This document shows positions 7,180-24,180 of a stretch of DNA of 45,715 nt, one piece after another (within the stretch, counting starts at the first letter, position 1; each line of letters starts with the position of its first letter). The translations under genes were made by a program, and so were the position numbers. The stretch covers positions 1 to 45,715 of the IMG/VR virus record IMGVR_UViG_3300035156_000370; one strand, given 5' to 3'. Origin of the DNA: a virus. The notes beneath the pieces are model-generated. The model did no database searches. It was not told the origin of the DNA and saw nothing but the letters and a program-made list of their open reading frames with translations.

Positions 7180-7199
7180 TTAGGTGAGCCCCAAGCTAC
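7180..7199 (-). promoter_or_regulatory. Conserved leader in front of DUF2158 copy 2
   Basis: TTAGGTGAGCCCCAAGCTAC (plus-strand reading) is the partner of 6924-6943, with two differences, at the same distance from its start codon. See that entry. Confidence 0.45.
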
Positions 7200-7228
7200 T
7201 CACTTGCTTGTTCACTTTCACTACTGCC

Positions 7229-7264
7229 AAAGCGCCTCTGTTACTCCGGTAGCAGAGGCGCTTT
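7229..7264. terminator. Strong hairpin between divergent genes
   Basis: AAAGCGCCTCTG and CAGAGGCGCTTT form a perfect 12-bp stem, extended inside by TAC/GTA around a short loop. It lies between the divergent starts at 7165 and 7453, where a terminator has no obvious transcript to end. It may insulate the two promoters or form part of the leftward leader. Neither side has a long U run. Confidence 0.5.
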
Positions 7265-8988: not shown

Positions 8989-9312
8989 ATGCTAAATGCT
9001 CTCTGCCGGCAACGCTTCACGTATGATCTGCGCTTGATCATACCAGCCGCCCAGGTGGAGTCGGTGCTAGATGCTGTTGATTATTGTGAAGTGGCTACCG
9101 GCTTACCCTATGATGATATTGCCCGGCCTTACTACCGGATTCTGCTCACTGGCAAAGAGCTCAAAGGAGAGCAGCTGCTGCTGCTACTCGATAGCGCCCG
9201 CCGGCTTTGCCTGACCTTCGCCGTTTTCGTTGATGAGCTCTTGCTGCCCTGGGTGCTCACCGATCACCCGCCCCTAGTTGACCAGTTCACTCAAATGTTT
9301 GCCGCGGCATGA
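8989..9312 (+). CDS. Hypothetical protein
   Basis: A 107-residue, Leu-rich, acidic soluble protein with no recognised motif. First gene of a four-gene run (8989-10147) after the terminator; its stop overlaps the start of the next gene (9309). Confidence 0.45.
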   Translation: MLNALCRQRFTYDLRLIIPAAQVESVLDAVDYCEVATGLPYDDIARPYYRILLTGKELKGEQLLLLLDSARRLCLTFAVFVDELLLPWVLTDHPPLVDQFTQMFAAA

Positions 9313-9575
9313 TGGCAGCGCTGATCAGTCTCGCAGTGGCCACCGTTTGCTTTGGCACGGCCGCGGCCTTTTGGTTTTGGTGTTCCCGCCAATTCCTACG
9401 GCAGCGTAACAGCCTGCAAGTGCAGAATGATCTGCACCTGCAAACCATTTTCAGCCTGCAGCAGCAGCTGCAACAGATGCCGCGCTGCACCCACTGCGGC
9501 ATTAAGCGAGTGCCCTGGGCCTCCACTCTAATTTGTGACACCTGTAAAGCCGCCCGGCCACATGAGCAGCACTAA
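9309..9575 (+). CDS. Membrane-anchored zinc-ribbon protein
   Basis: An 88-residue protein: an N-terminal membrane helix (residues about 3-25, ISLAVATVCFGTAAAFWFWC), a Gln/Leu coiled coil (30-56), then CTHCGIKRVPWASTLICDTC, a four-Cys zinc ribbon. The order suggests an inner-membrane protein with a cytoplasmic metal-binding knuckle. No specific family recognised. Overlaps the next gene by 14 bp. Confidence 0.5.
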   Translation: MMAALISLAVATVCFGTAAAFWFWCSRQFLRQRNSLQVQNDLHLQTIFSLQQQLQQMPRCTHCGIKRVPWASTLICDTCKAARPHEQH

Positions 9576-9876
9576 CTACATCCCAACACCCGAAAAGCTC
9601 ATTAACCTGGGCTATCATCCCGATCCGGTGCACACGCTCACCGAATGGGAGCTACTTGGCTTTAGCTGGCAGTGGCCAGCGCCCTACCATCCCTACTATG
9701 TCACCCTAGCAGTGCAGGTTCGGACTAGTGATGGTCAGATTTTCCTGCATCGCTATGCTCAGCAGGCTAAGGAGGTATGGTGCTATAAAGTGCCGACTGA
9801 GCAATTTTTTGAGCAGTTGCTGAGTGCTATCGGGTGGCCTCAGGACGCGGCCGGAATCATGTACCTTGATGCATAA
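9562..9876 (+). CDS. Hypothetical protein
   Basis: A 104-residue protein from ATG 9562 (MSSTNYIPTPEKLINLGY). Rich in aromatic residues (many Trp and Tyr, several next to Pro), with a beta-rich middle part (VTLAVQVRTSDGQIFLHRYAQ). Soluble, no motif recognised. It lies in the overlapping run of small accessory genes. Confidence 0.45.
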   Translation: MSSTNYIPTPEKLINLGYHPDPVHTLTEWELLGFSWQWPAPYHPYYVTLAVQVRTSDGQIFLHRYAQQAKEVWCYKVPTEQFFEQLLSAIGWPQDAAGIMYLDA

Positions 9877-9889
9877 AATTCACTACATC

Positions 9890-10147
9890 ATGAATTTAAA
9901 TCAACACGCCGCCCGGCATTTAGATCCGGCTAATCCTAACCAGTTGCCGGCAGCGGCTCGGCAGCTAATCAGCGAGCACTCGCAGTACATGCTGCAGCAC
10001 CGCGGCTTTTTGTATCCTTTTGAGCAGGTAATGCTTATGCGAGTACAGAGGGAAATGGCCGGGCCGGATGAGCAGGAGCTTAAAAAAGAAAAACGGCGGG
10101 AATATCAGCGGCGTTGGCAGCAAAAACGCCACTCGGCGAATGCCTAG
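9890..10147 (+). CDS. Small basic hypothetical protein
   Basis: An 85-residue protein from ATG 9890; ATG 9869, which overlaps the previous stop, is the alternative. It ends in a strongly basic helix (LKKEKRREYQRRWQQKRH) suited to nucleic-acid binding. It is the last plus-strand gene before the non-coding region at 10148-10485. Confidence 0.45.
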   Translation: MNLNQHAARHLDPANPNQLPAAARQLISEHSQYMLQHRGFLYPFEQVMLMRVQREMAGPDEQELKKEKRREYQRRWQQKRHSANA

Positions 10148-10149
10148 TT

Positions 10150-10300
10150 GATAGGAGAAAGTAAGCCCACTTCTATCTTTGGCCCTGCAGGTGGTTTTAC
10201 GTCAGTGTTTACCCACCTGAGTCGGCCCCGGGGTCGGCAGGCCTATGCGTTGGGAATTGGCATAGGGAAAAGCCTCATCTGGGTTCAGGTGGGGCTTTTC
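10150..10300 (+). ncRNA. Putative structured RNA ending in a terminator
   Basis: Five consecutive helices: GATAG/CTATC with AAGT/ACTT inside (10150-10177); CAGGTGG/CCACCTG (10188-10194/10213-10219); CGGCC/GGTCG (10223-10236); CCTATGC/GCATAGG (10242-10248/10260-10266); and a 14-bp terminator stem AAAAGCCTCATCTG/CAGGTGGGGCTTTT (10268-10299). CCCACCTGA at 10212-10220 could instead pair perfectly over 9 bp with TCAGGTGGG at 10285-10293 in the terminator. No open frame of note. Strand is chosen from the terminator orientation and the upstream genes. It may be a free RNA or the 3' end of the 8989-10147 transcript. Confidence 0.45.
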
Positions 10301-10342: not shown

Positions 10343-10369
10343 ATAAACTGTCATGCCGTGACAGTTTAT
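10343..10369. promoter_or_regulatory. ATAAACTGTCA palindrome, intergenic copy 1
   Basis: ATAAACTGTCA (10343-10353), 5-nt spacer, TGACAGTTTAT (10359-10369): a perfect 11-bp inverted repeat. Its 9-bp core and spacer length are the same as those inside the replication gene (2454-2476) and at 23730-23752. It is not followed by a U run, so a protein-binding site is more likely than a terminator. Confidence 0.55.
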
Positions 10370-10411: not shown

Positions 10412-10440
10412 GAAAGCCGGCCGATTATCGACCGGCTTTC
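10412..10440. terminator. Terminator of the minus-strand head operon
   Basis: GAAAGCCGG and CCGGCTTTC form a 9-bp stem, with CGAT/ATCG inside. It lies 46 bp past the stop of the minus-strand gene at 10486; on the minus strand it is followed by a T-rich TTGCTTTATC. Probably bidirectional. Confidence 0.75.
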
Positions 10441-10485: not shown

Positions 10486-11034
10486 TTACAATACTGGTAA
10501 CTCAACCACAATGTTCCCGCGGCTCTCCATCTCCAAGTTTTCCACCTCACCGCCGCCGGCATCATGGCCAGCCGCATCGAATAGCCGACACTTGTAGCCT
10601 TGGCTGTACACCCACAGGCCCGGCTGAGTCAGCGGCTCCTTACGCGAGTAGGTACGCACTAAAGCACCGAACCCATCCCCCTCGAAATGCTGCAGTGCCT
10701 GGTGAATGGCGCCAATGGTTTGCAGCTTGGCCATGGCCGCGGACCGTTGGCTGCTGTGCTGATAGCTATCCTGCACTACCTGCACCGCATACGTGAAACG
10801 GATCACAGCCTCTCCGCGCTGGACTCCCTGCAGCAGATCCTGCCACTCTACCTCATCGAATGAAATAAAGAGGCACCCCGCATCATAGGGCAATGGATAA
10901 TCCTGAGCATCCTGCTCAATCTGATCCATATCTAAATCAATCCAGCCAATACCCGGCAGCTGCTCAGCTAGTCGGTCGGCTAGCTGAGGATACACTAGGC
11001 TGAAACTATTCGTGCTTTCTGTTTCGGTGCTCAT
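10486..11034 (-). CDS. Phage head/tail-completion-type protein (tentative)
   Basis: A 182-residue acidic protein, last gene of the minus-strand packaging/head operon, after the gpG-like gene. LVYPQLADRLAEQLPGIGWIDLDMDQIEQ and a later beta-rich part (VIRFTYAVQVVQ, IVVELPVL) resemble the alpha/beta layout of tail-terminator or head-tail completion proteins, which normally stand at this place in Mu-like head operons. I cannot name a family with certainty; the call rests mainly on position. Confidence 0.45.
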   Translation of the reverse strand: MSTETESTNSFSLVYPQLADRLAEQLPGIGWIDLDMDQIEQDAQDYPLPYDAGCLFISFDEVEWQDLLQGVQRGEAVIRFTYAVQVVQDSYQHSSQRSAAMAKLQTIGAIHQALQHFEGDGFGALVRTYSRKEPLTQPGLWVYSQGYKCRLFDAAGHDAGGGEVENLEMESRGNIVVELPVL

Positions 11035-11955: not shown

Positions 11956-14327
11956 CAAAAGGATAGTTGTAGTTGCTGCTCTATCTTTTTAGCTACCTTT
12001 TTCGGCACCTCGGCAAAATAGGGATGCTCATCACCGAACAGCTTGCCAGTGGCGCCGACGTTATGCGCGAACAACTGAGGCACCTGAGGCAGACCCTCCA
12101 ACTGAGCAGCCGTGCTCAGCGGCACCTCATCCTCAACGAGCTCAACGGCATCACACCGGCAGTTCCACGAGTTGGGAGGCAGGTGCTTTAACCAAAAACT
12201 ATGCTCTTTAGGCAAGGTGATACCATCATAGCGCCGGTGCTCTGGCCGTACTAAATCATCACCTACCGTCCTATACTGCAGCAGGCTGCTGGGCTCAAAC
12301 TCGCTCCACTTAGAGGCCATCTGAGCGCCGGCCACCGCATGCTCATACTCTGTTTTGAGATGGTGCACGTTGTAGAGCTGATTCAGCTGCAGGGCATCCG
12401 CTTTGAAGTCTGCAAACGGCCGGATTTCACCGGCCGCATCATAGAGCTTGCGCGTGAGCTCCTGGCAAACCCGGTAGGATTTGAAGCCAGAAAACCGCTG
12501 CACATTCTTGTACAGGAAGGCTTTCAGCTTCTCATCAGGAGCTTTCCACGCAATCTCAATAGCCGCCCCTAGCTGCTCACTGATGTACTCATAAAGGGGC
12601 AAATCCACTAGCAGCGCCTCCGGATCACCGGCGCCGGCATAGAGCACGCTGATCAGCCGCTCCATCAGATCTTGCAGCTTTTTCTCATCGGCAGCAGAGG
12701 CCTGCACCGCGGCCGCGCTATGACCAGTGCTGCAGCAGCTGCCGGCATACAGAGCCGACACATCAGCAGCGGGGCTCACCGGCAAGCCGCCGGCCGGTGA
12801 GCCCTTAGGCTTTCCCGGCAGATCCGGCCCGGGGCCGGCTGCATCAGGATCCGGCTCATCGTCTCCCTCAGGGCGCTGCTCTGGGCTCACCTTGGGCAAG
12901 GTGATGCCGGCTAGCGCTAAGGCTTCAGCGAGTGGCACACCGGCCGCGGTGGCTGCCTGCAGCACGCTCAGCTGCGCTTTGAGCTTGCGCTGAGCTATGG
13001 CCTCATCTTCATTCTCTTCCGGCAGGTTCAGCTGAGCCCGCGCCTCATTGCGGTTCACCACGCCGGCCTCAATGTGATAGCCTAGTATTGGGCGGGCCTC
13101 CGCAGTTGCATCGGCGGCCGTGCCCTGGGTGCCGCCGGCCGCGGCCACGGCCGCAGCATCCGGCTCTAATTCGATGCCAAAGGTGCTCTCTAGCCAAGTG
13201 CGTTTAACCTGGTAGCCAGAATTCTGCATAACCCCCTGCACCATCTCAAAGAGCTCCTTTTTGGTTAGCGTCTCGGAATCATCCCAGGCCACCTCACAGC
13301 CTTTGAGCGGATAGCCGTGCCGGATCAGGAAAGGCAGCAGCGTATCATTGAGCAGGCTAAGCAGAAAATCAGAATCCGCCCGGGTGTAGCTGGCCGCCAC
13401 GCGCTCATGCACCTCACTCTGGGAGAGGCTGCTGCCGCTATCGGTGGTCATGGTTTGCCCTAGAATCAGCTTGCTGAGCTCCGAGTTGGCCCGATCAATG
13501 AACGTATCATATAGCCGCTCATTGGCCGTAGCTGCCGATATCCACTCAATTTTCACATCATCCGGGAACACGCCGTAGGAGGCCTGCCCCATGTTGGCAA
13601 TGATTTCCTCGATACGTTCCAGTTCCTCCCCTTCCGCCTCAGTGGTAACAGCCCGGTAGGGCATACCAAATATCTCGGTGAAGTCAGCCCACGCGCTTAC
13701 CACGTTCTTTTTGTAGAGAGCCATGGGGGCGGCTTTGTTCAGCAGCCCTAAGTCCGTAGGATCACCGACCTCAATCAGCCACGGAGCAAACGCCGGATCC
13801 GTCCGAAACTCAGTACCAGTAATCATGCCGGGCATGGTGCGTACAATGCCGAGCTCCGGAGAGACGTACTGCCGGGGAATCAGATCAACATCCTTGAATT
13901 CTCCCGCTATCGGCAGCGGAAACTCTATGAGGCTGTGGCCATAGTAGATTTTCTCTAGAGCCAGCGTGCAAAACTTCCGGAACCACGGCTTTTTGAGCAG
14001 CTTGGTGAGCTCTGGCTTTTCTACGCCGGCCACGGTCTGCACTTTGAAAGCCCGACTGAGCACATTGATCAACCGGGTTTCCATCACGCTGCTTAGGTGC
14101 AGATCTAGCACCAAGTCAGCGTAGATGTTGAGCAGTTCGGTGCGGTTCGGATAGAAAACTGATTCAGCGCTACTTAAAGCACTCCGCCACTTTCCAACGT
14201 CCTGTCGCAAGCGGTGTACTTGTACCGGATACATCCGATTGCGAATACTTTCTTTACCGGGCTTCTGTGCGCCAAATAGTTTGAATGGATTAAGTTCCGC
14301 TAGCTTCTGAGGAATATTGAAGGCCAT
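11955..14327 (-). CDS. Portal protein fused to MuF-type minor head protein (DUF935 + gpF)
   Basis: A 790-residue protein. Residues about 1-440 are the DUF935 portal family (Mu gp29): the LNIYADLVLDLHLSSVMETR, YYGHSLIEFPL, ILGQTMTTDSGSSLSQSEVHERV and DNDTLLPFLI-like segments are typical; portals form the dodecameric DNA gate at the head vertex. A Pro/Gly-rich linker (about 475-520) leads to a C-terminal gpF/SPP1-gp7 head morphogenesis domain (LLQYRTVGDDLVRPEHRRYDG, HFWL-like, NSWNCRCDAVEL). The first 60 or so codons are a diverged copy of the stub at 23961-24179, and the gene is separated from its terminase genes by the inserted block. Portal and minor head protein are separate genes in Mu. 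Confidence 0.85.
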   Translation of the reverse strand: MAFNIPQKLAELNPFKLFGAQKPGKESIRNRMYPVQVHRLRQDVGKWRSALSSAESVFYPNRTELLNIYADLVLDLHLSSVMETRLINVLSRAFKVQTVAGVEKPELTKLLKKPWFRKFCTLALEKIYYGHSLIEFPLPIAGEFKDVDLIPRQYVSPELGIVRTMPGMITGTEFRTDPAFAPWLIEVGDPTDLGLLNKAAPMALYKKNVVSAWADFTEIFGMPYRAVTTEAEGEELERIEEIIANMGQASYGVFPDDVKIEWISAATANERLYDTFIDRANSELSKLILGQTMTTDSGSSLSQSEVHERVAASYTRADSDFLLSLLNDTLLPFLIRHGYPLKGCEVAWDDSETLTKKELFEMVQGVMQNSGYQVKRTWLESTFGIELEPDAAAVAAAGGTQGTAADATAEARPILGYHIEAGVVNRNEARAQLNLPEENEDEAIAQRKLKAQLSVLQAATAAGVPLAEALALAGITLPKVSPEQRPEGDDEPDPDAAGPGPDLPGKPKGSPAGGLPVSPAADVSALYAGSCCSTGHSAAAVQASAADEKKLQDLMERLISVLYAGAGDPEALLVDLPLYEYISEQLGAAIEIAWKAPDEKLKAFLYKNVQRFSGFKSYRVCQELTRKLYDAAGEIRPFADFKADALQLNQLYNVHHLKTEYEHAVAGAQMASKWSEFEPSSLLQYRTVGDDLVRPEHRRYDGITLPKEHSFWLKHLPPNSWNCRCDAVELVEDEVPLSTAAQLEGLPQVPQLFAHNVGATGKLFGDEHPYFAEVPKKVAKKIEQQLQLSF
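14131..14147. repeat. Candidate attachment core, portal-proximal copy
   Basis: AGCAGTTCGGTGCGGTT encodes (minus strand) the NRTELL segment of the intact portal. It matches 23983-23999 at 16 of 17 positions. Upstream portal codons continue to match the stub at a lower level; past the core, toward the portal 3' end, similarity stops. Confidence 0.45.
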
Positions 14328-14435
14328 AGTAGTAGGAAGTGCGCAGTGTATACCTCTTTTAATTGGCTACTGCACAATTCAGTGCAATTTCTTCATGCCA
14401 TCCGCATCCTACTATAAAAAAGATAGATAATCTGT

Positions 14436-14476
14436 AAACAAGAGACGCCTGCTCTTGAAGCAGGCGTCTCTTGTTT
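14436..14476 (-). terminator. Very strong terminator between homing endonuclease and portal genes
   Basis: A perfect 17-bp stem (AAACAAGAGACGCCTGC with its complement) and 7-nt loop overlap the stop codon of the GIY-YIG gene. It should stop leftward transcription from the recombinase operon, so the intact portal needs its own promoter within 14328-14435. Confidence 0.85.
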
Positions 14477-15308
14477 ATGGCAAATATCGAAAAGTGAAAC
14501 CGGCAGTTTTTCTTCTCTTTCCATGTAATACCCTGTATACGGCGGTTTTGTGAAGACCAAGACTACGGCATATACTATTTACGCTAGGAAAAATATCTAT
14601 TAATCTACCATCTAAAGTTAGTCTTTCTACTTTTTTTGTTGGTTTTCTTTCTTTGTTTAAGGGCAGACATTTAGGCTTCTTCTCTTTCCCGTTTTTATCA
14701 TACTCAGCACGCTTTAGCATGAAGTTTTGATGTGATCTTCTTCCGCGTCTACTGTTTAGTACTGCATCAACTGAAGCTCTGTTCCAGTCAAGTTGCCGAC
14801 ACATTGCACTGGCACTCGGAAATGAGTCTATAAATTTTCCATTCTCATCAAATCGATTGATCTTTTTTCCCGGAGCCACCCATCCATTTCGCACCCGCTC
14901 TCTTGCTAGCGCTGATATGAGAGCTTTCATCTCTGGCGTTCTTTTCTTGCCAGTATTGCTTGCTACTCTTTTCGCAATAGCTTCTGCTGATTGTTTGATC
15001 CCTAGCACCCCCTCGCCTCCATCGGTGGTATTTGTCAGCTCGCTTAGCTGCCTATACTCTTGGATATAAAACCTTTCACGTTCCTGCCATTCTGCTTCGG
15101 TTGTGCGCTCTAGGATTTCCAAAATTGGTTTTTTTCCAAGTGCCAGTAGGCTGCTTAACCAGTGGTTTTTATGAGTGTGGGACCGGCGTTGGCTTGGAAT
15201 TAAGTGAAGCTGCAAGCGTTTCTGCGGATTTTTTGCTTTCCCTATATACCGTACTTGTAAGGTGTCCGGGCATTTCAAGGCATAGATGAATACAGTTGTG
15301 TTTTCCAT
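14475..15308 (-). CDS. GIY-YIG homing endonuclease with NUMOD-type repeats
   Basis: A 277-residue protein. The N-terminal GIY-YIG nuclease is clear: FIY at 7-9, YIG at 21-23, conserved Arg 31 and His 35, the EWQERERFYIQEY helix and NTTDGGEG. It is followed by an NUMOD3-like basic linker and two C-terminal DNA-binding modules of about 50 residues (INRFDENGKFIDSFPSASAMCRQL... and VERLTLDGRLIDIFPSVNSICRSL...), each with an HTH-like helix pair. Such enzymes cut a target lacking the element and spread by repair. It starts 3 bp after the recombinase stop and is probably co-transcribed with it. Confidence 0.9.
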   Translation of the reverse strand: MENTTVFIYALKCPDTLQVRYIGKAKNPQKRLQLHLIPSQRRSHTHKNHWLSSLLALGKKPILEILERTTEAEWQERERFYIQEYRQLSELTNTTDGGEGVLGIKQSAEAIAKRVASNTGKKRTPEMKALISALARERVRNGWVAPGKKINRFDENGKFIDSFPSASAMCRQLDWNRASVDAVLNSRRGRRSHQNFMLKRAEYDKNGKEKKPKCLPLNKERKPTKKVERLTLDGRLIDIFPSVNSICRSLGLHKTAVYRVLHGKRRKTAGFTFRYLP

Positions 15309-15311
15309 CTC

Positions 15312-16631
15312 CTAAGTACCAAAGTGAAACTGAATCACGCGGCCGGCTTCAGGCTCCGGCGTAAAGCCCGGCGCGGCCGGGGGCGGCGTGGGCTTCCCCC
15401 CAAACACGCGGTCAAACTCACTGACTACCGTCTTATTGAGAATAAAGGCGTAGGTGGTTTCCGTCATCTTCACGCTGCTATGGCCTAAGAACTTGCTCAC
15501 CACTTCCATGCGGATACCTTGGTTGAGCAACTGCACCGCCGCCGTTTTGCGCCCGACGTGGCTCGTCATTTTCTCGCTACTAATATCACAGAGTAAGCCC
15601 ACTTCTTTGAGCCGGTAGTTGTAGAGCTGGTTGACCGGCACCCGCAGCCGGTCCCCGTACTTGGCTAAGATGCGCTCCGCCTCTGGTAGCAGGGGAATCA
15701 CGCACTCATAGCCCTTGCGCAAGGTGCTCTTTTGCCGCACCACGCGCAGCACCCGCCGCCCGGTTTCGGCATCTAGTTCCACGCAAGCGGCCACATCCAG
15801 CGCCCGCAAATCCGCGTAGGCTAAGCCCGTCCAACACTGAAACAGAAAGTTATCCCGCGCCCGCTCTAATGCCTTAATGCGGAACTCGGTAGCGGCTAGC
15901 CGCGCTATTTCTTCACTGGTGAGATAGATAATCTCTTTCGGGGCGTTCATGCGGTACTCATAGAGAGCCATCGGATTGCTGCTCAGGTGTTCCCGCCGCA
16001 CGGCCCACTTGAGCACCTGTGAGACGTATTTGAGGTGCTTGAGGGCCGTGTTGCGCTCGGATTGCTCGGCAATCAGCAGCCAATGCAGATACTTGTCCCC
16101 CATACTGTGCCCGAACTCTTCGGGCCGCAGGTCTGGCAAGCCGTGCGCCTCCAAAAAGGCCATTAGCTTACTCAAGCGGGCCTGTCCGCTTTTCAGGGTG
16201 GCAGCACTGATTTCAATGCCCACCAGGGCTTGCCGTTCGGCTAGGTAGGCCGTGTAGAGTTCGGGCAAGCTCAGCAGGCTGCCGGCCGATTTATACAGGC
16301 GGGCCAAGGCTTGCGCACTCACCGGCCGGCCCTGCCGCTCTAGGTCGGCGTGTAGGTCGTGTAGATCATCCAGCATCTTGACCAAGGCACGGTTGTAGCG
16401 CTTGACCCGCTCACTACTGCCCTGCACTCGTTGGGCTTCCGCGCTCCACTCCGCATAGGGCAGGCGGATATAGGTGCTCAGCGTCGTGCGCTTGCCGCGC
16501 ACGGTCAGCCGCAGGACGAGGGTACCGACGGTATCAGGGGGTATCACGGGCTTTTTAGAGGGGGGAACCAGGATAAGGACGCAGTCTTTGGGCTTGCGAA
16601 ACACGAACGTGAAGGAAACGGGCGTTTTCAT
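15312..16631 (-). CDS. Tyrosine recombinase of the inserted element
   Basis: A 439-residue Bacteroidota-type integrase: N-terminal arm-binding domain (1-110), core-binding SAM-like domain (about 120-225) and catalytic domain. The catalytic residues look complete: R276 (TGLAYADLRAL), H358 and R361 (TSHVGRKT), H384 (FLGHSS) and nucleophile Y394. The arm domain is clearly related to that of the broken integrase at the right edge (shared FVFRKPKDC and PPSKKPVIPP). Its start overlaps the stop of the 96-residue gene upstream by 4 bp. A Pro-rich tail is unusual. It probably integrates and excises the 14131-23999 block. Confidence 0.9.
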   Translation of the reverse strand: MKTPVSFTFVFRKPKDCVLILVPPSKKPVIPPDTVGTLVLRLTVRGKRTTLSTYIRLPYAEWSAEAQRVQGSSERVKRYNRALVKMLDDLHDLHADLERQGRPVSAQALARLYKSAGSLLSLPELYTAYLAERQALVGIEISAATLKSGQARLSKLMAFLEAHGLPDLRPEEFGHSMGDKYLHWLLIAEQSERNTALKHLKYVSQVLKWAVRREHLSSNPMALYEYRMNAPKEIIYLTSEEIARLAATEFRIKALERARDNFLFQCWTGLAYADLRALDVAACVELDAETGRRVLRVVRQKSTLRKGYECVIPLLPEAERILAKYGDRLRVPVNQLYNYRLKEVGLLCDISSEKMTSHVGRKTAAVQLLNQGIRMEVVSKFLGHSSVKMTETTYAFILNKTVVSEFDRVFGGKPTPPPAAPGFTPEPEAGRVIQFHFGT

Positions 16632-16918
16632 TGCGCGGTCCCTCCTTTCTCGGCGCTGAGCGCTTGCCGGCTTTCAAGCACGGCCGCTTTCTCTTCCGAC
16701 AGGCGCAACTGCTCTAGGGTATAGTCGAGCAGCAACTTGGAAATCTGAATGCCGACTTCATGACTCACCGGAATTTCGCGCTGCTGTTCAGGCGCCGGGC
16801 CACAGCGTAAGGTGATGCCCATCATCTCACCGGCCTGAATGGCCTGTTCATAGAGCGTGGGCACACTCGTCAAGGCACTGCTCTGAGCAGTGCCTGACAC
16901 AAGTATCTGCATCGCCAC
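16628..16918 (-). CDS. Small protein upstream of the recombinase
   Basis: A 96-residue protein without a recognised family. The C-terminal half is a Leu/Glu-rich helix (LDYTLEQLRLSEEKAAVLESRQAL). Its stop overlaps the recombinase start (ATGA), and it follows the 111-residue gene by 3 bp, so all three are read together. A directionality-factor or recombinase-helper role is possible from position only. Confidence 0.5.
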   Translation of the reverse strand: MAMQILVSGTAQSSALTSVPTLYEQAIQAGEMMGITLRCGPAPEQQREIPVSHEVGIQISKLLLDYTLEQLRLSEEKAAVLESRQALSAEKGGTAQ

Positions 16919-16921
16919 GGG

Positions 16922-17257
16922 TTAGGCGGCGTGGGCAGTGGTGATAGCGAATTCGGCCGGCAGCCAGGCTTCGCGGCGCTTGGCTTCGCGGTAGACGTTG
17001 CAAAACCAGCGCTGTAGCTGTACGATACACGCGCACTGATACACGCTGTCGTTGGCTACCAGACGCTCGGTTTCGGTGAAGACGGTAGCATCCTCCATCA
17101 AGGCCGTGATGTTGTAGCGCATGGCCGTAAGCGTAGCTTGCGCAGCGGCTTGCTTTACTTCTGCTTGCTTTTGCAGGAAGCGGGCAAGTGGCCCGGTGTA
17201 GGTGGGGAGGTGGCCAGCAACTGTTAGCGCAGTTGCGGCGGTGGTTGCAGTTTGCAT
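16922..17257 (-). CDS. Small protein, first gene of the recombinase operon
   Basis: A 111-residue, Ala/Thr-rich helical protein; no HTH or other motif I can name. It begins the leftward operon 16922-16628-15312-14475, about 120 bp from the palindrome cluster at 17376-17454 that could control both directions. Confidence 0.5.
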   Translation of the reverse strand: MQTATTAATALTVAGHLPTYTGPLARFLQKQAEVKQAAAQATLTAMRYNITALMEDATVFTETERLVANDSVYQCACIVQLQRWFCNVYREAKRREAWLPAEFAITTAHAA

Positions 17258-17375
17258 ACCTTTGTAAATAAGTAGGTGAAAGAATCGGGGTTAGCGCCCC
17301 GGCTCTGAATCGGGAGGTCACTTGTTAGCGCAGGTGGCCTCTTTCTCTTTCAGAACATGACAAAGATACATAATA

Positions 17376-17454
17376 TTCTTACGTAAGAAAATTAATACAT
17401 AAATAAATTCTTGTTTGTTTTCTTACGTAAGAATGTAGAAATATATTTCTACAT
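17376..17454. promoter_or_regulatory. Operator cluster: three palindromes and a -7 box
   Basis: TTCTTACGTAAGAA occurs as a perfect 14-bp palindrome at 17376-17389 and again at 17420-17433, 44 bp apart (about four helical turns). Directly next to the second is TGTAGAAATATATTTCTACA (17434-17453), a perfect 20-bp palindrome. A TACATTTG box (17450-17457), a perfect match to TAnnTTTG, overlaps its right edge, only 8 bp before the ATG at 17465. This is a classic divergent control region between the recombinase operon and the small regulator. Confidence 0.7.
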
Positions 17455-17464
17455 TTGGTTCACC

Positions 17465-17650
17465 ATGCAAGAGGAACCAAAAAAGGCAGGCCGGCCAACT
17501 AAGGATAAAACCCGCCACAAAAAAGGACGCACCTTATCTTTTACTGATGCTGAATATGCCGAGCTAACCGCTCAAGCGGTGGCGGCTAAATTGGGTGTAA
17601 GCGAGTATGTAATTGAGAAGCTAGGATTGCGTAAGCCTCCAACACTCTAA
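17465..17650 (+). CDS. Small ribbon-helix-helix/MobC-like DNA-binding protein
   Basis: I start it at ATG 17465, giving 61 residues: GRPTKDKTRHKKGRTLSFTDAEYAELTAQAVAAKLGVSEYVIEKLGL. A basic arm, a short beta strand (RTLSFTDAEY) and two helices are the layout of ribbon-helix-helix proteins, including MobC-type relaxosome accessory proteins and plasmid or phage regulators. The start is 8 bp after a TAnnTTTG box, so the mRNA may be nearly leaderless. The neighbouring palindromes are its likely operators (inference). Confidence 0.6.
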   Translation: MQEEPKKAGRPTKDKTRHKKGRTLSFTDAEYAELTAQAVAAKLGVSEYVIEKLGLRKPPTL

Positions 17651-17841
17651 AAGCCTTTTTCGGAGCGTCAGGCTTGCCGGCGAGGCAGCTACCTCGCGCT
17701 AAATTGAGCGCACTTGGCACCGTTGCGAATCGGGGTCAGCGAGTTTACCATTGCAACGCTTGAACTGGACGAACCCTAGGCATAGCACCATAATTTCTTT
17801 GCTAATTATTAACCTTTGGTGTTAATATTTCGTACATTTGT

Positions 17842-18183
17842 ATGCATATAAGTTTTGCCACTCGCAAGCTCCAGAAGTCACTTAGTGATACCGCCGAACG
17901 AGCAAAAAACTATGGGGCAGTATGTGGCAAAATCATAGGCAGGCGCTTGGACACTATGGCGGCTGCTACCACTTTAGAGGATTTGCGTCATGTTCCTGGT
18001 AAATTTCACGCTCTCTCATATGATCGTAAAGGCGAGCTTTCTTGCCATTTAGAAGAGCCACTTAGACTGATCTTTCGAGTCAACCATGATCCTTTACCCC
18101 TCGATGAAAATGACGAATTAATCTGGTCTCAGGTAACTCAAGTCGAAGTACTTGAGGTTATCGACTACCATCGTAAGAAATAA
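17842..18183 (+). CDS. HigB/RelE-like toxin of a type II toxin-antitoxin pair
   Basis: A 113-residue protein matching the RelE/ParE-superfamily killer proteins: ISFATRKLQKSL at the start, KIIGRRLDTMAAATTLEDLRHVPGKFHALSYDRKGELSCHLEEPLRLIF in the middle and VEVLEVIDYHRK at the end. Family members cut mRNA on the ribosome or act similarly. Toxin-first order with an HTH antitoxin behind it is that of higBA. A TACATTTG box ends one base before the ATG. The gap 17651-17841 holds a small GCGAGG/CCTCGC hairpin and nothing else evident. Confidence 0.8.
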   Translation: MHISFATRKLQKSLSDTAERAKNYGAVCGKIIGRRLDTMAAATTLEDLRHVPGKFHALSYDRKGELSCHLEEPLRLIFRVNHDPLPLDENDELIWSQVTQVEVLEVIDYHRKK

Positions 18184-18207
18184 CACACTTTCAACGACCG
18201 TACTACT

Positions 18208-19323
18208 ATGTATCTATATCAGCCTGACAGCGTTAGTCACCCCGGAGAAATGCTTGCCGAAGCATTAGAGGAAAATGATAACATGTCGCAGAAAGAACTT
18301 GCTGCACGCACAGGCCGACCCCTTAAAACCATCAACGAAATCATTCAAGGTAAAGCCTCTATCAAGTCAGAGACGGCTGTACAACTAGAGAAAGTCCTGC
18401 ATATTCCGGCTAAACTTTGGCTGCAATACCAAGCCAATTATGATGAGTCTGTTGCGCGCCAAGCTGAGATTGCCCGGTTCGAGGTGGATGCTCAATGGAT
18501 GGCTCGTTTCCCTGTAGGTGATATGACCAAATGCGGTTGGTTGCCAGCTACTAAAGACAAGCGTCAAGTGCTGGCAAGCATGCTTGAATTTTTCTCTGTG
18601 GCTAGCCCAAAAGGCTGGAACGACATGTGGTTAGCACCAAGCGCCCGCTTTCGTATCTCCTTGGCTCACACTTCGTCCCCGGAATCTGTATCAGCCTGGC
18701 TTCGTCATGGTGAAATCTGTGCTAGTCAAATGGACTTGCCAGCCTTCAATGCTAAGCGATTTGAAGAAGGCTTGTCACGGTTGCGCACGTTCATAAAAGA
18801 AGACAACTTAGAAGTTGTACAGCAAGCTATGCGCGAAGAGTGTAAAGCTGCTGGCGTATCCTTGGTATTTACGCAGTGTTTGAAACATGCCCCAATTAGT
18901 GGAGCCGTTCGATGGATCAATGATCGTCCAGTCATGCAGATTTCAGGACGTTTCAAATACGATGACCATATCTGGTTTACTTTTTTCCATGAAGCAGCAC
19001 ACATTTTACTACATGGAAAACAGCAAGTTTTTTTAGAAGGTACTACTGAAACTAACGAGCAGCATCAAGAAGCAGAAGCAGAGGCTAATCAATATGCCGC
19101 TGATTTCTTAATCCCTTCCAAAGAGCGAGAGGAATTTATTGAGGCTGCGAACTTCACTAAAGCAGCCATTTTAGCTTTTGCAAAAAAGCTGAAAGTTGCT
19201 CCGGGCATTATAGTGGGACAACTGCAAAAATATCAAGTGGTTCCTTATGGCACGCGGCTTAATTATTTAAAACGACAATTTGATTTATCAATGGATGAGC
19301 TGCCGCTAAATAACGCAGCTTAA
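18208..19323 (+). CDS. Antitoxin: XRE HTH fused to ImmA/IrrE metallopeptidase domain
   Basis: A 371-residue protein. Residues about 10-75 are a HigA-type XRE helix-turn-helix (HPGEMLAEALEENDNMSQKELAARTGRPLKTINEII...LEKVLHIPAKLWLQ). The C-terminal part has the zinc-protease motif of the ImmA/IrrE family, FFHEAAHILLH, with H261, E262 and H265, and further acidic residues in EAEAEANQYAADFLIP. It is much longer than plain HigA (about 100 residues). The HTH should repress the pair and neutralise the toxin; the peptidase could link release to a signal such as DNA damage, as for ImmA. Confidence 0.85.
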   Translation: MYLYQPDSVSHPGEMLAEALEENDNMSQKELAARTGRPLKTINEIIQGKASIKSETAVQLEKVLHIPAKLWLQYQANYDESVARQAEIARFEVDAQWMARFPVGDMTKCGWLPATKDKRQVLASMLEFFSVASPKGWNDMWLAPSARFRISLAHTSSPESVSAWLRHGEICASQMDLPAFNAKRFEEGLSRLRTFIKEDNLEVVQQAMREECKAAGVSLVFTQCLKHAPISGAVRWINDRPVMQISGRFKYDDHIWFTFFHEAAHILLHGKQQVFLEGTTETNEQHQEAEAEANQYAADFLIPSKEREEFIEAANFTKAAILAFAKKLKVAPGIIVGQLQKYQVVPYGTRLNYLKRQFDLSMDELPLNNAA

Positions 19324-19374
19324 GCGTTGATCACATAGCAAGTATTTTCTATTTAATTCAATAAATAAAAAATA

Positions 19375-19773
19375 ATGTCGACTATTATTCGTGAAGGCAG
19401 TTCAATACTGGGAACAGCTCTGTTCAACTGGGATGGAAAGAATTTGCGTCGAGGCAGCTCAGCATTTGGGACCATTGTGGCAAATTGGGATGGTAAAAAC
19501 ATCCGTGAAGGCAGCTCAATGTTTGGTTCTATTCTCTTCAATTGGGATGGGAAAAACTTACGCAAAGGTAGCTCAGCATTAGGTTCTACTCTCTTTAATT
19601 GGGATGGAAAGAATATCCATCAAGGTAGCTCCATATTAGGTTCCACTGTTTTTAATTGGGATGGCAAGAATGTCCGTAAAGGCAGTTCAATATTGGGAAC
19701 TATCTCAATGAATATAGCTGGCCCTATTCCTGAGGCCATATTAATTGCCGTAGCAACTAATAGCATTTCATAA
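19375..19773 (+). CDS. WDGK tandem-repeat protein
   Basis: A 132-residue protein built almost wholly from a 19-residue (57-bp) unit with consensus R-x-G-S-S-x-x-G-x-x-x-x-N-W-D-G-K-N-(L/I/V): five full copies and one partial copy, then a hydrophobic tail (GPIPEAILIAVATNS). The alternating G-S-S and W-D-G-K turns imply a small all-beta repeat fold, similar in style to beta-flower/YD-like repeats, but I cannot assign a family. No signal peptide. Moderately AT-rich DNA. It lies between the toxin-antitoxin pair and membrane or surface genes, so it is likely cargo. Confidence 0.65.
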   Translation: MSTIIREGSSILGTALFNWDGKNLRRGSSAFGTIVANWDGKNIREGSSMFGSILFNWDGKNLRKGSSALGSTLFNWDGKNIHQGSSILGSTVFNWDGKNVRKGSSILGTISMNIAGPIPEAILIAVATNSIS

Positions 19774-19790
19774 AACTAAATAATAAGCCG

Positions 19791-19808
19791 TGGGGTGCTA
19801 GCACTCCA
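19791..19808. terminator. Small hairpin after the repeat gene
   Basis: TGGGGTGCTAGCACTCCA is an 18-bp palindrome with one G-U pair, 17 bp after the repeat-protein stop and 15 bp before the next start. No U run, so termination would be weak. Confidence 0.35.
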
Positions 19809-19823
19809 AAGACAGTCTATTAT

Positions 19824-20450
19824 ATGAAGGTTGGAGTAGCGACTGTGATAGCGGCTGTTTTCGCTACAGGTAGCGGTATAGGAGTTGCCTATTACAATGC
19901 AAAAGAGCAGCGGGAACTGGAACGAGAGCAATTTCAATCTAATCTTATCCAGCAATCCATTGATTTCAAGGATTATAAGCAGAGCAGAGCTAATCTTAAA
20001 TTCTTGATAGATGTGGGTCTTATTGCCGAGAACAACAAGAAGATAAATTCTTTTATTCGGGATACTAGCGTGCATTTGCAGCGCCCAGTTGACCGCTTGC
20101 CAATTGCTGAACCTGCCGTCAGCAAGCCCTATAAAATTGGGCAATTCAGTGAATCTTACCTAAATGGAACAGTTGTTGACGCCTTAACAAAGCGCCCGAT
20201 TGTTGGCGCTATAGTTATCATAGAGACTTATCAACCGAGATACTATGGGCGTCCAGAACCACCGGCCCCTGAAGCAGAGAAAATGGTAACTAGACGCGAT
20301 GGGAAATACCAAGTACACAAACCGTGGGGCGACTACTTTCTCTACATTCAGCGCCCAGGGTATGAAAGCCTTAAACTATCCACGCTAGGGTTTAGTGATT
20401 TGCCAGATGAGCAAACAGTTGAGCTTGAGCGGAAAGAGAGCGATAATTAG
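19824..20450 (+). CDS. Membrane-anchored protein with a carboxypeptidase-regulatory-like domain
   Basis: A 208-residue protein. An N-terminal membrane helix (VGVATVIAAVFATGSGIGVAYY, residues 2-24) is followed by a charged helical region (25-75) and a C-terminal Ig-like beta domain: LNGTVVDALTKRPIVGAIVIIE...TRRDGKYQVHKPWGDYFLYIQRPGYESLKL is the pattern of CarboxypepD_reg/CNA-B-like domains, often surface-exposed. No enzyme motif is visible. Function unknown; probably cargo of the inserted element acting at the envelope. Confidence 0.6.
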   Translation: MKVGVATVIAAVFATGSGIGVAYYNAKEQRELEREQFQSNLIQQSIDFKDYKQSRANLKFLIDVGLIAENNKKINSFIRDTSVHLQRPVDRLPIAEPAVSKPYKIGQFSESYLNGTVVDALTKRPIVGAIVIIETYQPRYYGRPEPPAPEAEKMVTRRDGKYQVHKPWGDYFLYIQRPGYESLKLSTLGFSDLPDEQTVELERKESDN

Positions 20451-20498
20451 AATTTTTTATAAAAGAATGTTTAAAATAACTGTTAAAGTTTCAATTAA

Positions 20499-21164
20499 AT
20501 GATAAAAATCAATCACAAACAACTAGCTGGTGCAATAATTATTTTATTTGTTGTTATAATATATTCTATATATGAGCCTAACATGGCATCTTTTTTTATA
20601 TGTTTTATAATCTATTTATTCGCATGGATAACTGCTTATTTTTTCAGAAAAACAACGATAGGAAAATACCTGCATTTTATTCTTAGTATTCCTGCTGCGT
20701 TTATACTATATGCAGGGGATTATGCAATTGCGCTTGGTGCAGTTTTATTTACAAGTGCAGTAGTTCTTATGTTATCAGTATATGCATTTGGTATTATTCC
20801 TAATAAAATATTAGGAATTTCAATTAACGATGCTACGACTTTGTATCTATCATTAACTTTCTCATCTATCATAATGACGAGTTTTGGCGATACCTTAGTT
20901 AACTTCTGGCATTATATACAAAGTCCTGATGAACGCAGTAAATTAAGTAATCTATCTACAAGAATATTAGATCAGCGTAAGATTAGATATGTATTATTTT
21001 TTTGCTACTTCATAGTATTATTATTTCTAAATTATTGTGTATTAAATCAAATAGAAATATTTTTAACTCCCAAGATGGATACAGCAATCCTCCAAGCTTT
21101 TGCTACTTATGTAGCATACGACAGACTAGCTTCAAATTGGAATGCTATAATGAATACTAAGTAA
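20499..21164 (+). CDS. Multi-pass membrane protein
   Basis: A 221-residue, very hydrophobic protein with about six membrane helices (roughly residues 9-27, 28-48, 60-80, 80-103, 113-132 and 162-185). The gene is strikingly AT-rich with AT-ending codons compared with the GC-rich phage genes, a sign of recent transfer. No family recognised. It converges with the lipoprotein gene (3-bp gap). A membrane effector of an exclusion or abortive-infection system is one possibility, without direct evidence. Confidence 0.6.
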   Translation: MIKINHKQLAGAIIILFVVIIYSIYEPNMASFFICFIIYLFAWITAYFFRKTTIGKYLHFILSIPAAFILYAGDYAIALGAVLFTSAVVLMLSVYAFGIIPNKILGISINDATTLYLSLTFSSIIMTSFGDTLVNFWHYIQSPDERSKLSNLSTRILDQRKIRYVLFFCYFIVLLFLNYCVLNQIEIFLTPKMDTAILQAFATYVAYDRLASNWNAIMNTK

Positions 21165-21167
21165 TAA

Positions 21168-21581
21168 TTATTTCGATTCTATATACTTGCCAGAATCAAA
21201 CGGATCAGGAGTGAACACATATAGATCAATCGAATTATTTACTAACACTTGAGCTATTACCTTACGCTGCAACGCTTCTGCCTTATCATACATGCCATCC
21301 TTACCAGGAGTGAAATCATCGGCATCAATAAAGGCGATTACCGTCGCTTCGCCCGTGGTCTTAGCCTCTTGTGCGGCTGTCTCGCGTAACAACTGCCAAC
21401 ACGCGCTACTTTTCGGATTGAAGTTGGGGACTGTGTGATACATCCTGATCTGCTTTCCAGCTACTGCCATTATAGGCTCCGAAACTTGTGGGCAAGATAT
21501 TGTAGCAGATGCAGCCTGCTGAGTAGAGGGGTCTGCTGAGCAAGAGGCTAGCAAAAGGAGAAAAGTAAAGTAGCGTTTCAT
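21168..21581 (-). CDS. Lipoprotein
   Basis: A 137-residue protein with a clear lipoprotein signal, MKRYFTFLLLLASC (lipobox Cys 14). The mature part contains Cys residues at about 30 and 61 and a domain ending IDLYVFTPDPFDSGKYIESK. No family recognised. It is the only leftward gene between 17.4 and 23.8 kb, so it is probably transcribed on its own. Confidence 0.6.
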   Translation of the reverse strand: MKRYFTFLLLLASCSADPSTQQAASATISCPQVSEPIMAVAGKQIRMYHTVPNFNPKSSACWQLLRETAAQEAKTTGEATVIAFIDADDFTPGKDGMYDKAEALQRKVIAQVLVNNSIDLYVFTPDPFDSGKYIESK

Positions 21582-21619
21582 TGATTATAAGTTGATTAGT
21601 CGGCAAAGATAATTTTACT

Positions 21620-21667
21620 CGTTAAAGGGTGAAATTATCACTCTTTAACGGGGAATATTTCCCCGTT
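21620..21667. promoter_or_regulatory. Two adjacent hairpins/palindromes upstream of tape measure copy 1
   Basis: CGTTAAAGGGTGA/TCACTCTTTAACG (21620-21632/21638-21650) is immediately followed by and overlaps AACGGGGAA/TTCCCCGTT (21647-21655/21659-21667). They sit between divergent genes (lipoprotein leftward, tape measure rightward). A related CCCCTTTAAAGGGG palindrome precedes the late operon at 27287-27300. Terminator or binding site. Confidence 0.45.
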
Positions 21668-21700
21668 TAAATAATTCACTTCTTTTTATGTTACTATAAC

Positions 21701-21735
21701 AGGAGAGCTTGCGGCATCATTCATGCTGCTCTCCT
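21701..21735 (+). promoter_or_regulatory. Inverted repeat ending at the start codon of tape measure copy 1
   Basis: AGGAGAGC (21701-21708) and GCTCTCCT (21728-21735) form a perfect 8-bp inverted repeat with a 19-nt spacer; the second arm ends at the base before ATG 21736. In RNA it would close a hairpin against the start codon and bury the purine-rich AGGAG. It is absent in front of copy 2. Confidence 0.4.
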
Positions 21736-23385
21736 ATGCCTTCGCTTCTTAATTTCAAGCTTACTCTAGAGGATTATCTAGGGCCCAAACTCGCTCAATT
21801 ATCCGCTAAAGTAGAAGCGTTTGGCAGCAAAGTAGAAAAGCCGCATAAGGTCAAAGTAGATACGCAGCAAGCTTCCGGAGGACTCAGCAAGCTGGCCTCG
21901 CTGGCATCGGGTGCCTTCGCTGCTCTTGGCGTCTTTGAGGCTGCGAAAAGCCTCGTGAAAATGGGCAGTGAATTAGAGCAGACGCGCATCCAATTCGAGA
22001 CCTTCGCCGGCTCAGCAGAGAAAGGAAATGCCGTACTAGCTGACTTGCAGAAATTCGCGCAAGTCACGCCGTTTGAGGACGGGCAAGTAATCAGCGCCGG
22101 CCGGCAGTTGATGGCCTTCGGAGAGAAAGCCGAAAATCTAAACCCAATCTTGACGAAGTTGGGTAACATCAGTTCAGCCACTGGTAAGGACTTTAACGAG
22201 TTGGTGTCTTTGTGGGGCAAAAACAAGCTCAGCGGCATCATCCAAGGGGAAGACTTGAATCAGCTAGTTGACTCCGGCATTCCGGTAATGGATAGCCTAG
22301 CTCGGCAGTTAGGCGTGACCACGGCAGAGGTCCGCAAAATGGGGGCTGATGGAAAAATCAGCTTTGGCATGCTGGACAAAGCTTTTGATGAGCTCGGCGG
22401 CGCTGGTGGCAAGTGGGGCAACTTGATGGAAAAGCAGAGCAAAACCTTTGCCGGCCGGCTTTCTTCGTTGGTAGGTTTCGCTCAGAACATCGGTGGCAAG
22501 CTTGGGGAGGCCCTCACGCCTGGCTTGGGCAAGATTGTTGATGCCGGAAGCCGCTTGCTCACTTTCGTAAGCGAAAACACACAGAACATCAAAGCTATGT
22601 TCGCGCCTTTGCTGCTAGCTGTGCAACCTCTTGTTGATGCCTTCGATCAGGTGATGGTGCAGTTTGGCATGACCGGGGACGGGGCCGGCTATCTAACGGG
22701 CCTCTTTAACGGAATGGCGACGGTGATAACCTACCTGAGTCCGGTAATCAAAGTGGCCGCTACGGCATTGGGGGCTATGTATGTGAAGGTGTATAGCCTG
22801 ATCGGAGCCCTGGCTAAGTTTGTCGAGACGAGCCCGCGCCTACAGAAGTTTTTCGCCGGTTTACTCGGCGGGGCTACTGCTGCCTTTAAGGGTGTCGCAG
22901 AGGCAGCTACCAGCCTGTTTGGGGGGCTTGCTGATATTATTGAGGGAGTGTTTACGCTCAACTTTGGTAAGCTTAAAACGGGCCTCAAGGATACGCTCAT
23001 GAGCTTAGCATCCGGGGGCACCATTGCCGAAAAGGCCGGGCGGGGTTTTGCGGATGGCTATCAGAAAGGATTCAAAAAATCTACGCTGTTCGACAAAGCC
23101 AAGGAGCCGGCCGCTGACTCTGCTGCCGCTGCTTTCATGGCCTCAGGGGCCAAGCCCGGTGCCGCGCCAGCTTCGCTCGCGCCAAGTCTGAAAGAAAAGG
23201 CCGGCACTGCTGGGGCCGCCGGTAGCTCGAAGGTGACCAACATCACGCTTAACATCCGGGAGCTGATTCATGAACTCAAAGTGGAGGCGGCTACCGTGAC
23301 GGAGGGCGCCGATCAGATTGCCAGCATCGTGTTGCAGAAACTGATGGCTAGCCTCAATGATGTGAATACAATAGCTTCTACCTAA
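21736..23385 (+). CDS. Tape measure protein, copy 1 (in inserted element)
   Basis: A 549-residue protein, clearly homologous over its whole length to the copy at 34070-35716 and of practically the same length. The N-terminal tape-measure domain (GSELEQTRIQFETFAGSAEKGNAVLADLQKFAQVTPFEDGQVI) is the phage tape measure core. The middle carries hydrophobic helices, and the C-terminus ends in ATVTEGADQIASIVLQKLMASLNDVNTIAST, nearly identical in both. Tape measure length sets tail length. Codon use differs from copy 2, so the duplication is old or came from a related phage. No chaperone genes precede it. Confidence 0.85.
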   Translation: MPSLLNFKLTLEDYLGPKLAQLSAKVEAFGSKVEKPHKVKVDTQQASGGLSKLASLASGAFAALGVFEAAKSLVKMGSELEQTRIQFETFAGSAEKGNAVLADLQKFAQVTPFEDGQVISAGRQLMAFGEKAENLNPILTKLGNISSATGKDFNELVSLWGKNKLSGIIQGEDLNQLVDSGIPVMDSLARQLGVTTAEVRKMGADGKISFGMLDKAFDELGGAGGKWGNLMEKQSKTFAGRLSSLVGFAQNIGGKLGEALTPGLGKIVDAGSRLLTFVSENTQNIKAMFAPLLLAVQPLVDAFDQVMVQFGMTGDGAGYLTGLFNGMATVITYLSPVIKVAATALGAMYVKVYSLIGALAKFVETSPRLQKFFAGLLGGATAAFKGVAEAATSLFGGLADIIEGVFTLNFGKLKTGLKDTLMSLASGGTIAEKAGRGFADGYQKGFKKSTLFDKAKEPAADSAAAAFMASGAKPGAAPASLAPSLKEKAGTAGAAGSSKVTNITLNIRELIHELKVEAATVTEGADQIASIVLQKLMASLNDVNTIAST

Positions 23386-23395
23386 AACAAAGCAG

Positions 23396-23689
23396 ATGAC
23401 AGTGCAACAACATGATCTAGAGCGGTTAGCGGCTAGTCCGTTGCCGGATGGAAGCTTATTTAAGAAAGCAAAGGTAGTCCCCGCTGAGTGGAAGCGTTTG
23501 CAGCCGGGGCAAAAGATAATTGTGCGGCTGAAGGGTAGCAGTGACTTGCTAGGCATTGAAGTAGTAACGAATCAGCTAGCACACCCGGCCGCGCCGTGCT
23601 TGGTTGGCCGGCAACTTAAAGGAGAGGAAACGGCCACGTTTAAACGGCGTGACATTCGGGATATTCAGCTTTTTGAGGTGCGGCGTTAA
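23396..23689 (+). CDS. Hypothetical protein behind tape measure copy 1
   Basis: A 97-residue basic protein starting 10 bp after the tape measure stop. Beta-rich pattern (QKIIVRLKGSSDLLGIEVVTNQL). No relation to the DUF6046-like gene that follows copy 2, so the duplicated segment ends at the tape measure gene. No family recognised. Confidence 0.5.
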   Translation: MTVQQHDLERLAASPLPDGSLFKKAKVVPAEWKRLQPGQKIIVRLKGSSDLLGIEVVTNQLAHPAAPCLVGRQLKGEETATFKRRDIRDIQLFEVRR

Positions 23690-23717
23690 GGGCACCTAAG
23701 AACTATTCGGCGTAATA

Positions 23718-23764
23718 ATGCTACCCCATAAACTGTCACCGTATGACAGTTTATGGGGTAGCAT
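23718..23764. terminator. Long palindrome containing the ATAAACTGTCA motif (terminator-like)
   Basis: A perfect inverted repeat with 21-bp arms (23718-23738 and 23744-23764) and a 5-nt loop, followed by TGTTTTTT. The inner part, AAACTGTCA-N5-TGACAGTTT, is the same as at 2454-2476 and 10345-10367. It separates convergent genes (23689 plus, 23783 minus), so termination is likely, but the shared core suggests an added sequence-specific role. Confidence 0.7.
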
Positions 23765-23782
23765 TGTTTTTTCAATCTAATA

Positions 23783-23959
23783 CTACTGCACCAATGATTT
23801 CCGTAATTCCGGCTGCCGTTGAATAAAGTTTTTGAGGCTGCCAACCGTGCGTTCTAATTTATAAGCTAGTTCAGCCGCCGTAAAATCAGCATAGTGTGCC
23901 TGTATAAAGCGAGTGTCTGCCGTAGTATACGAACGGCGGCCTGTACCTCTAGCAGCCAT
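23783..23959 (-). CDS. Small Myb/SANT-like helix-turn-helix protein, second copy
   Basis: A 58-residue protein read leftward from ATG 23959: YTTADTRFIQAHYADFTAAELAYKLERTVGSLKNFIQRQPELRK. It is a clear paralogue of the HTH protein at 6448-6672 (shared TVGSLK and PEL). It starts 1 bp beyond the stop of the portal stub, so it is read from the TerS-TerL-gp36 transcript. It is the outermost gene of the inserted element on this side and could regulate it. Confidence 0.6.
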   Translation of the reverse strand: MAARGTGRRSYTTADTRFIQAHYADFTAAELAYKLERTVGSLKNFIQRQPELRKSLVQ

Positions 23960-23960
23960 A

Positions 23961-24179
23961 TCAGATAGGTAGTTTTAAGGCCAGCAGTTCCGTGCGGTTA
24001 GGGAAATACACCCCTTCCGCCTGATCTAAGGCGGAGCGCCACTTGCCTACATCCTGCCGCAAGCGGTGCACCTGCACCTGATAAGTGCGGTTCCGGATGC
24101 TTTCTTTGCCGTTTTTCTGGCTACCAGAGCGCCTAAAAGGGTTGAGCTCGGCTAGTTTCTGAGGGATATTGAAGGCCAT
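23961..24179 (-). pseudogene. Portal gene 5' stub
   Basis: A 72-codon frame starting MAFNIPQKLAELNPF, closely similar to the start of the intact portal at 14327 (shared GKESIRNR, VQVHRLRQDVGKWRSAL and PNRTELL). After ELL it runs into seven unrelated residues and a stop. It stands exactly where the portal gene should follow the gp36-like gene (2-bp gap). It is best read as the original portal 5' end left after insertion of the 14131-23999 element. A short peptide may still be made. Confidence 0.8.
23983..23999. repeat. Candidate attachment core, stub-side copy
   Basis: AGCAGTTCCGTGCGGTT matches 14131-14147 at 16 of 17 positions and is the last common sequence of the two portal 5' regions on the element side; beyond it (toward 23960) similarity ends abruptly. 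Confidence 0.45.
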
Positions 24180-24180
24180 G

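Follow-up and report, generated by a model that had tools for sequence, protein, structure and literature searches.

A candidate small RNA gene between the converging operons of a Hymenobacter-type transposable phage

Background

Small RNAs (sRNAs) encoded by phages are mostly known from phages of enterobacteria. OOP RNA of lambda and sar RNA of P22 are short RNAs that arise from inside the phage genome and pair with phage mRNA, cII and ant respectively (PMC12197685). The Pas sRNAs, found in prophages of enteropathogenic E. coli and described as base-pairing, are carried by phages, diverge fast, are confined to a narrow group of genomes and have other structured RNAs adjoining them (PMC13192938). 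Among the Bacteroidota, GibS of Bacteroides exemplifies the intergenic sRNA with an intrinsic terminator, a type of host gene with dRNA-seq and Northern support (PMC7366714). Promoters of this phylum carry a recognizable box: TAnnTTTG is the -7 consensus of Bacteroidota sigma-A (PMC7366714), and in Flavobacterium the box is located at -12 to -5 (PMC9723704). A brief literature search found no description of a Bacteroidota phage sRNA.

Here we present a candidate sRNA gene in a 45.7-kb virus record (IMG/VR IMGVR_UViG_3300035156_000370), the whole of which is referred to as the window. Like the Pas sRNAs (PMC13192938), the predicted RNA is phage-carried, diverges quickly, has a narrow range of carrier genomes and is accompanied in relatives by another RNA-like unit; unlike them, it has a Bacteroidota promoter box and is a prediction from sequence. 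Its relation to Pas was compared through Rfam. It resembles OOP and sar in being a short RNA from inside a phage genome, but both of its neighbours converge on it and, as far as its terminator, it does not run antisense to any coding region (PMC12197685). No tested sequence feature is common to it and OOP, sar or Pas. With GibS it has in common an intergenic position and an intrinsic terminator, whereas the RNA described here is a prediction, and Rfam revealed no relation between the two (PMC7366714).

Results

The convergent junction of the phage

The window encodes a Mu-type portal (PF06074), a Mu F domain, a tail sheath and a terminase. It is most closely related to Hymenobacter prophages and to uncultured viral contigs, the closest phage found being L066, whose portal is 69 % identical. 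Relatives of the genes flanking the junction were recovered by profile scans, close-protein scans with these genes giving none. At the junction, plus-strand early genes converge on the minus-strand DUF1834/phrog_6911, Neck1 and portal genes, as in the Bacteroides transposable phages of the hankyphage group, which have the order DUF1834, Neck1 and Mu F-like around theirs. The hankyphage junction genes, however, nearly touch (10444/10454 in PV107408), leaving no room for an RNA unit, whereas in the window 338 nt separate the last plus-strand ORF (9824..10147, without a family match) from the first converging late gene, a minus-strand phrog_6911 gene (10486..11034) at the position of DUF1834 in related phages. 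A second terminator-like hairpin (10412..10440, minus strand) faces the late genes.

Several other features of the window were recorded. A 27-nt palindrome, TAAACTGTCA...TGACAGTTTA, occurs at three sites (10343-10369, 23728-23754 and 2454-2484), and a similar one lies near 9519-9541 in L066; it could be an operator or a terminator. An insert of about 9.7 kb (14131-24187) seems to break the start of the portal gene, at a position where L066 and a second related phage, L005, are uninterrupted. Repeat copies that are 71 % identical flank it (14131-14335 and 23983-24187), and it contains a tyrosine integrase, a homing-endonuclease-like gene, a phage regulator, a HigB-like ORF and a second tape-measure gene (21709-23385, 71 % to 34567-35714). 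ARAGORN reported a tRNA-like fold with an incomplete anticodon at 9412-9496 (minus strand), inside ORF 9309-9575, which is probably spurious.

Parts of the candidate gene

The candidate gene, which we call unit A, occupies positions 10174-10300 of the plus strand and begins 27 nt past the stop codon of the upstream ORF. It opens with a perfect match to TAnnTTTG (TATCTTTG, 10174..10181). These genomes have about 0.14 such boxes per kb and strand, so that about 0.02 would be expected in the 120-nt gap. With the box at -12 to -5, transcription is predicted to start at 10186. No -33 consensus (TTTG) was found at the right spacing upstream; the weak candidate GTTG (10147..10150) leaves a 23-nt spacer, and its counterpart in L066 is ATTG with a 21-nt spacer.

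Two bases past the predicted start comes hairpin H1 (CAGGTGG/CCACCTG, 10188..10219), with the conserved GTCAGTG in its loop (10201-10207). Hairpin H2 (7 bp, 10221..10238) is without counterpart in L066 and L005, and hairpin H3 (CCTATGC/GCATAGG, 10242..10266) holds the conserved GTTGGGAA in its loop (10249-10256). The predicted terminator, a 15-bp hairpin followed by the short U tract CTTTTC (10267..10300), likely works in both directions; a simple terminator scan did not flag it, the U tract being short. Hairpins related to it occur in Hymenobacter genomes.

The initial annotation had described the interval 10150-10300 as free of genes, and it contains no ORF of at least 60 aa. Indel lengths between the L066 unit and that of the window are not divisible by three, a point against a peptide, and ARAGORN found no tRNA or tmRNA there. 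As read from the sequence, unit A would thus have a promoter of its own in the conserved TAnnTTTG box, an intrinsic terminator at the 3' end of the RNA and no coding capacity.

Homologous units in related phages

Sequence comparison indicates that the window unit has homologues at the same convergent junction in L066 and L005. In L066 the unit has the same orientation and reads CTATCTTTG-CCCCCGGCCGGTGGTTAGTCAGTGGCCACCGGCAG...CATCAGTTGGG... up to a terminator at its end. It is enclosed by two terminators, one of which parts it from the upstream gene, so that it would need its own promoter if transcribed. Local alignment of the window and L066 junctions extends over the entire unit (score 41 against 19.5 +/- 2.4 for shuffles, 0 of 500 reaching it), and the body, with box and terminator removed, was matched by none of 1000 shuffles. 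L005 has a shorter unit, TAGATTTG-CACCCGGCCGCGCTGTCAGTGGCC...TGTGTTGGGAAATTCAGCA followed by a terminator, whose body aligns with that of L066 (0/1000 shuffles); window and L005 taken alone align weakly (40/1000). A further phage, L006, has in common with the window a 13-nt block, CTATCTTTGGCCC, that contains the -7 box, and little else (junction alignment 1/500 shuffles). The TAnnTTTG box is therefore kept in four phages, with three clear members of unit A.

Among 0.97 Mb of retrieved loci, the combinations TAnnTTTG...GTCAGTG and GTCAGTG...GTTGGG were limited to the junctions of these three members. Over all IMG/VR, a joint pattern derived from the window, L066 and L005 sequences returned the L005 and L066 contigs only; being built on these sequences, their recovery proves nothing, but the lack of further matches indicates that the motif combination is rare. 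A covariance model made from the window alone gave the L066 unit as its best non-self match (22.6 bits, E 0.0023 in 347 kb) and the next match at E 0.38, such E-values being rough.

Other searches gave no additional member. No Rfam 15 family reached the gathering threshold in the window, L066, L005 or L006, and a loose threshold produced chance-level minus-strand matches only. Searching phage and plasmid records at the DNA level gave no match to unit A. In Hymenobacter genomes the window unit matched through its terminator hairpin only, and for the L066 junction almost every match was to its terminators. The unit pattern had two matches in 204 Hymenobacteraceae genomes, both inside long open frames and put down to chance. 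The block CTATCTTTGGCCC plus TGC had 17 matches over IMG/VR, of which that in L006 alone is relevant, and TATCTTTGGCCC is not a common form of Hymenobacter promoter (4 matches in seven genomes, similar to controls).

Conserved loop motifs on changing stems

Between the window and L066, six of the seven pairs of H1 are identical and one has undergone a double change from A-U to C-G; the arms were compared by hand in a script, and MAFFT misaligned these short arms. Compensatory changes in homologues had been named as a check on a structured RNA, and this double change is of that kind, yet covariation remains thin because there are three sequences and one such event. In each of the three phages, the motifs GTCAG and GTTGGG each have a hairpin of at least 5 bp around them (P 0.78-0.99), on stems that differ; in L066, part of GTTGGG is itself paired. 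When the flanks were shuffled around a fixed motif, 1-7 % of sequences matched that hairpin placement. The pattern is consistent with an RNA that holds loop motifs on variable stems.

Folding and the proposed switch

The initial annotation had seen in 10150-10300 a chain of five helices, and the minimum free energy fold of the plus strand does consist of four stem-loops and a terminator. Its first helix (10150..10177), however, lies across the promoter box and upstream of the predicted start; because the box at 10174-10181 predicts a start near 10186, this helix is probably promoter DNA and not part of the RNA, and H1 corresponds to the second helix. We also weighed and rejected a three-way junction with GGCCCTG/CAGGCC as its closing helix, since its 5' side lies mostly upstream of the predicted start. 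Against shuffles, the folding z-score was -2.6 to -2.9 with the terminator included and -0.7 without it, when 64 of 300 shuffles were at least as stable; 20 % of GC-matched 117-nt windows were equally stable. The significance of the fold thus stems from the terminator, and outside it the fold is no better than that of shuffled sequence.

A choice between terminator and antiterminator had also been proposed, in which the 3' arm of H1 (CCCACCTGA, 10212-10220) would pair instead with the 3' arm of the terminator (TCAGGTGGG, 10285-10293). The two segments are indeed perfect complements over 9 bases, found in 3 of 1000 shuffles with Watson-Crick pairs (74 of 1000 if G-U pairs count towards the best stretch). 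The forced alternative, however, lies about 10 kcal/mol above the ground state, with an ensemble probability of about 4e-8; H1 has formed in the growing chain by about position 10218, when the terminator is not yet made; and in L066 and L005 the longest complement of the H1 3' arm within the terminator is 3 nt. Nor does a plus-strand gene follow that could be switched. Energy cost, early folding of H1 and lack of conservation led us to set the switch aside as very improbable. The view that a classic riboswitch is unlikely agrees with these results, since the genes that follow lie on the minus strand and no switch is conserved, and the preference for a phage small RNA over a riboswitch is supported by the conserved promoter box, the homologous units, the terminator and the absence of a same-strand gene downstream.

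A second unit and a cargo site

When the L066 and L005 junctions are aligned, the best match falls not in unit A but in an adjoining, different RNA-like unit, unit B (score 58 against 21 +/- 2.6, 0/500 shuffles; body alone 1/1000), located on the minus strand at 9870-10004 in L066 and at about 9770-9905 in L005. It follows the pattern GCTGCTGAG..CCCTC..GGGC..GCCGGGCTGAA..GTCCGAAA and ends in a terminator, and it is preceded by a TAnnTTTG-like box, TAAATTTG in L066 and CATCTTTG, one base off, in L005. The order of units A and B is reversed between L066 and L005. No clear copy of unit B is present in the window, and the unit B pattern had no match in 120 Hymenobacter genomes.

The gene content of the convergent junction differs in other Hymenobacter prophages. 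In the Hymenobacter prophage L012 the junction holds a tRNA-Ala(CGC) gene (7186-7260, minus strand), preceded by a TACCTTTG box and followed by a terminator. The differing genes and this boxed, terminated tRNA mark the junction as a cargo site that can hold units made of promoter, RNA and terminator.

Discussion

We consider it probable, from the sequence signals and their conservation, that 10174-10300 is an independent sRNA gene. As a whole, the reading that it encodes a promoted and terminated base-pairing sRNA of about 115 nt in a Hymenobacter-type phage receives a probability of about 0.6. The carrier would be a Hymenobacter-type transposable phage of the Mu/hankyphage-like kind, in which the host RNA polymerase with its housekeeping sigma factor would start at the TAnnTTTG box. 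To judge from sequence signals and conservation, the resulting RNA of about 115 nt would run from 10186 to the intrinsic terminator between the converging operons, displaying GUCAGUG on H1 and GUUGGGAA on H3, hairpins whose stems change freely. By analogy with other phage-encoded sRNAs, the RNA would most likely act through base-pairing of its exposed motifs with phage or host mRNA. Given an sRNA gene, a trans-acting base-pairing regulator has somewhat better than an even chance; pairing of the loops with 30 orthologous start regions in the three phages gave nothing above chance (best P 0.24).

Three other readings were weighed. The interval could simply be where the upstream operon ends, its 3' UTR plus terminator, and might yield a processed 3'-UTR fragment; the hairpins ahead of the terminator would then be chance folds, and there would be no separate promoter. 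The short distance to the upstream stop codon (27 nt), the terminators that nearly all relatives have at this junction and a body no more stable than shuffles fit such an origin. It leaves unexplained, however, why four phages keep the TAnnTTTG box when the junction stretches of other Hymenobacter prophages examined have no such box, why the L066 unit stands past a terminator and why the body is conserved between junctions that otherwise cannot be aligned; we regard it as unlikely. A shade less likely is that the convergent junction of this phage clade forms an island of sRNA genes, in which the mutually unrelated units A and B would belong to undescribed families that act on host machinery and not on phage mRNAs, such as a decoy or an antisense RNA against host defence or regulation.

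The conservation could also reflect a cis element in the DNA, a protein-binding or recombination site at the cargo spot that is retained by common descent and does not act as RNA. The variability of the junction, where relatives carry different genes and one a tRNA-Ala, would suit such a site, and three sequences separate selection on DNA from selection on RNA poorly. Conservation is nevertheless restricted to the box and the hairpin motifs while the stems change, these motifs are not palindromic, and they hold the same order and orientation with respect to a promoter and a terminator, so that we judge a DNA element improbable, the least favoured of these three.

Read as an sRNA gene, unit A would represent a new family within a known class of RNA, the phage-encoded sRNA. 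A conserved RNA gene in a fixed place, with two invariant loop motifs and a second unit nearby, would offer a concrete and cheap experimental target. More generally, chains of hairpins with poor folding z-scores can be real RNA genes once relatives are compared.
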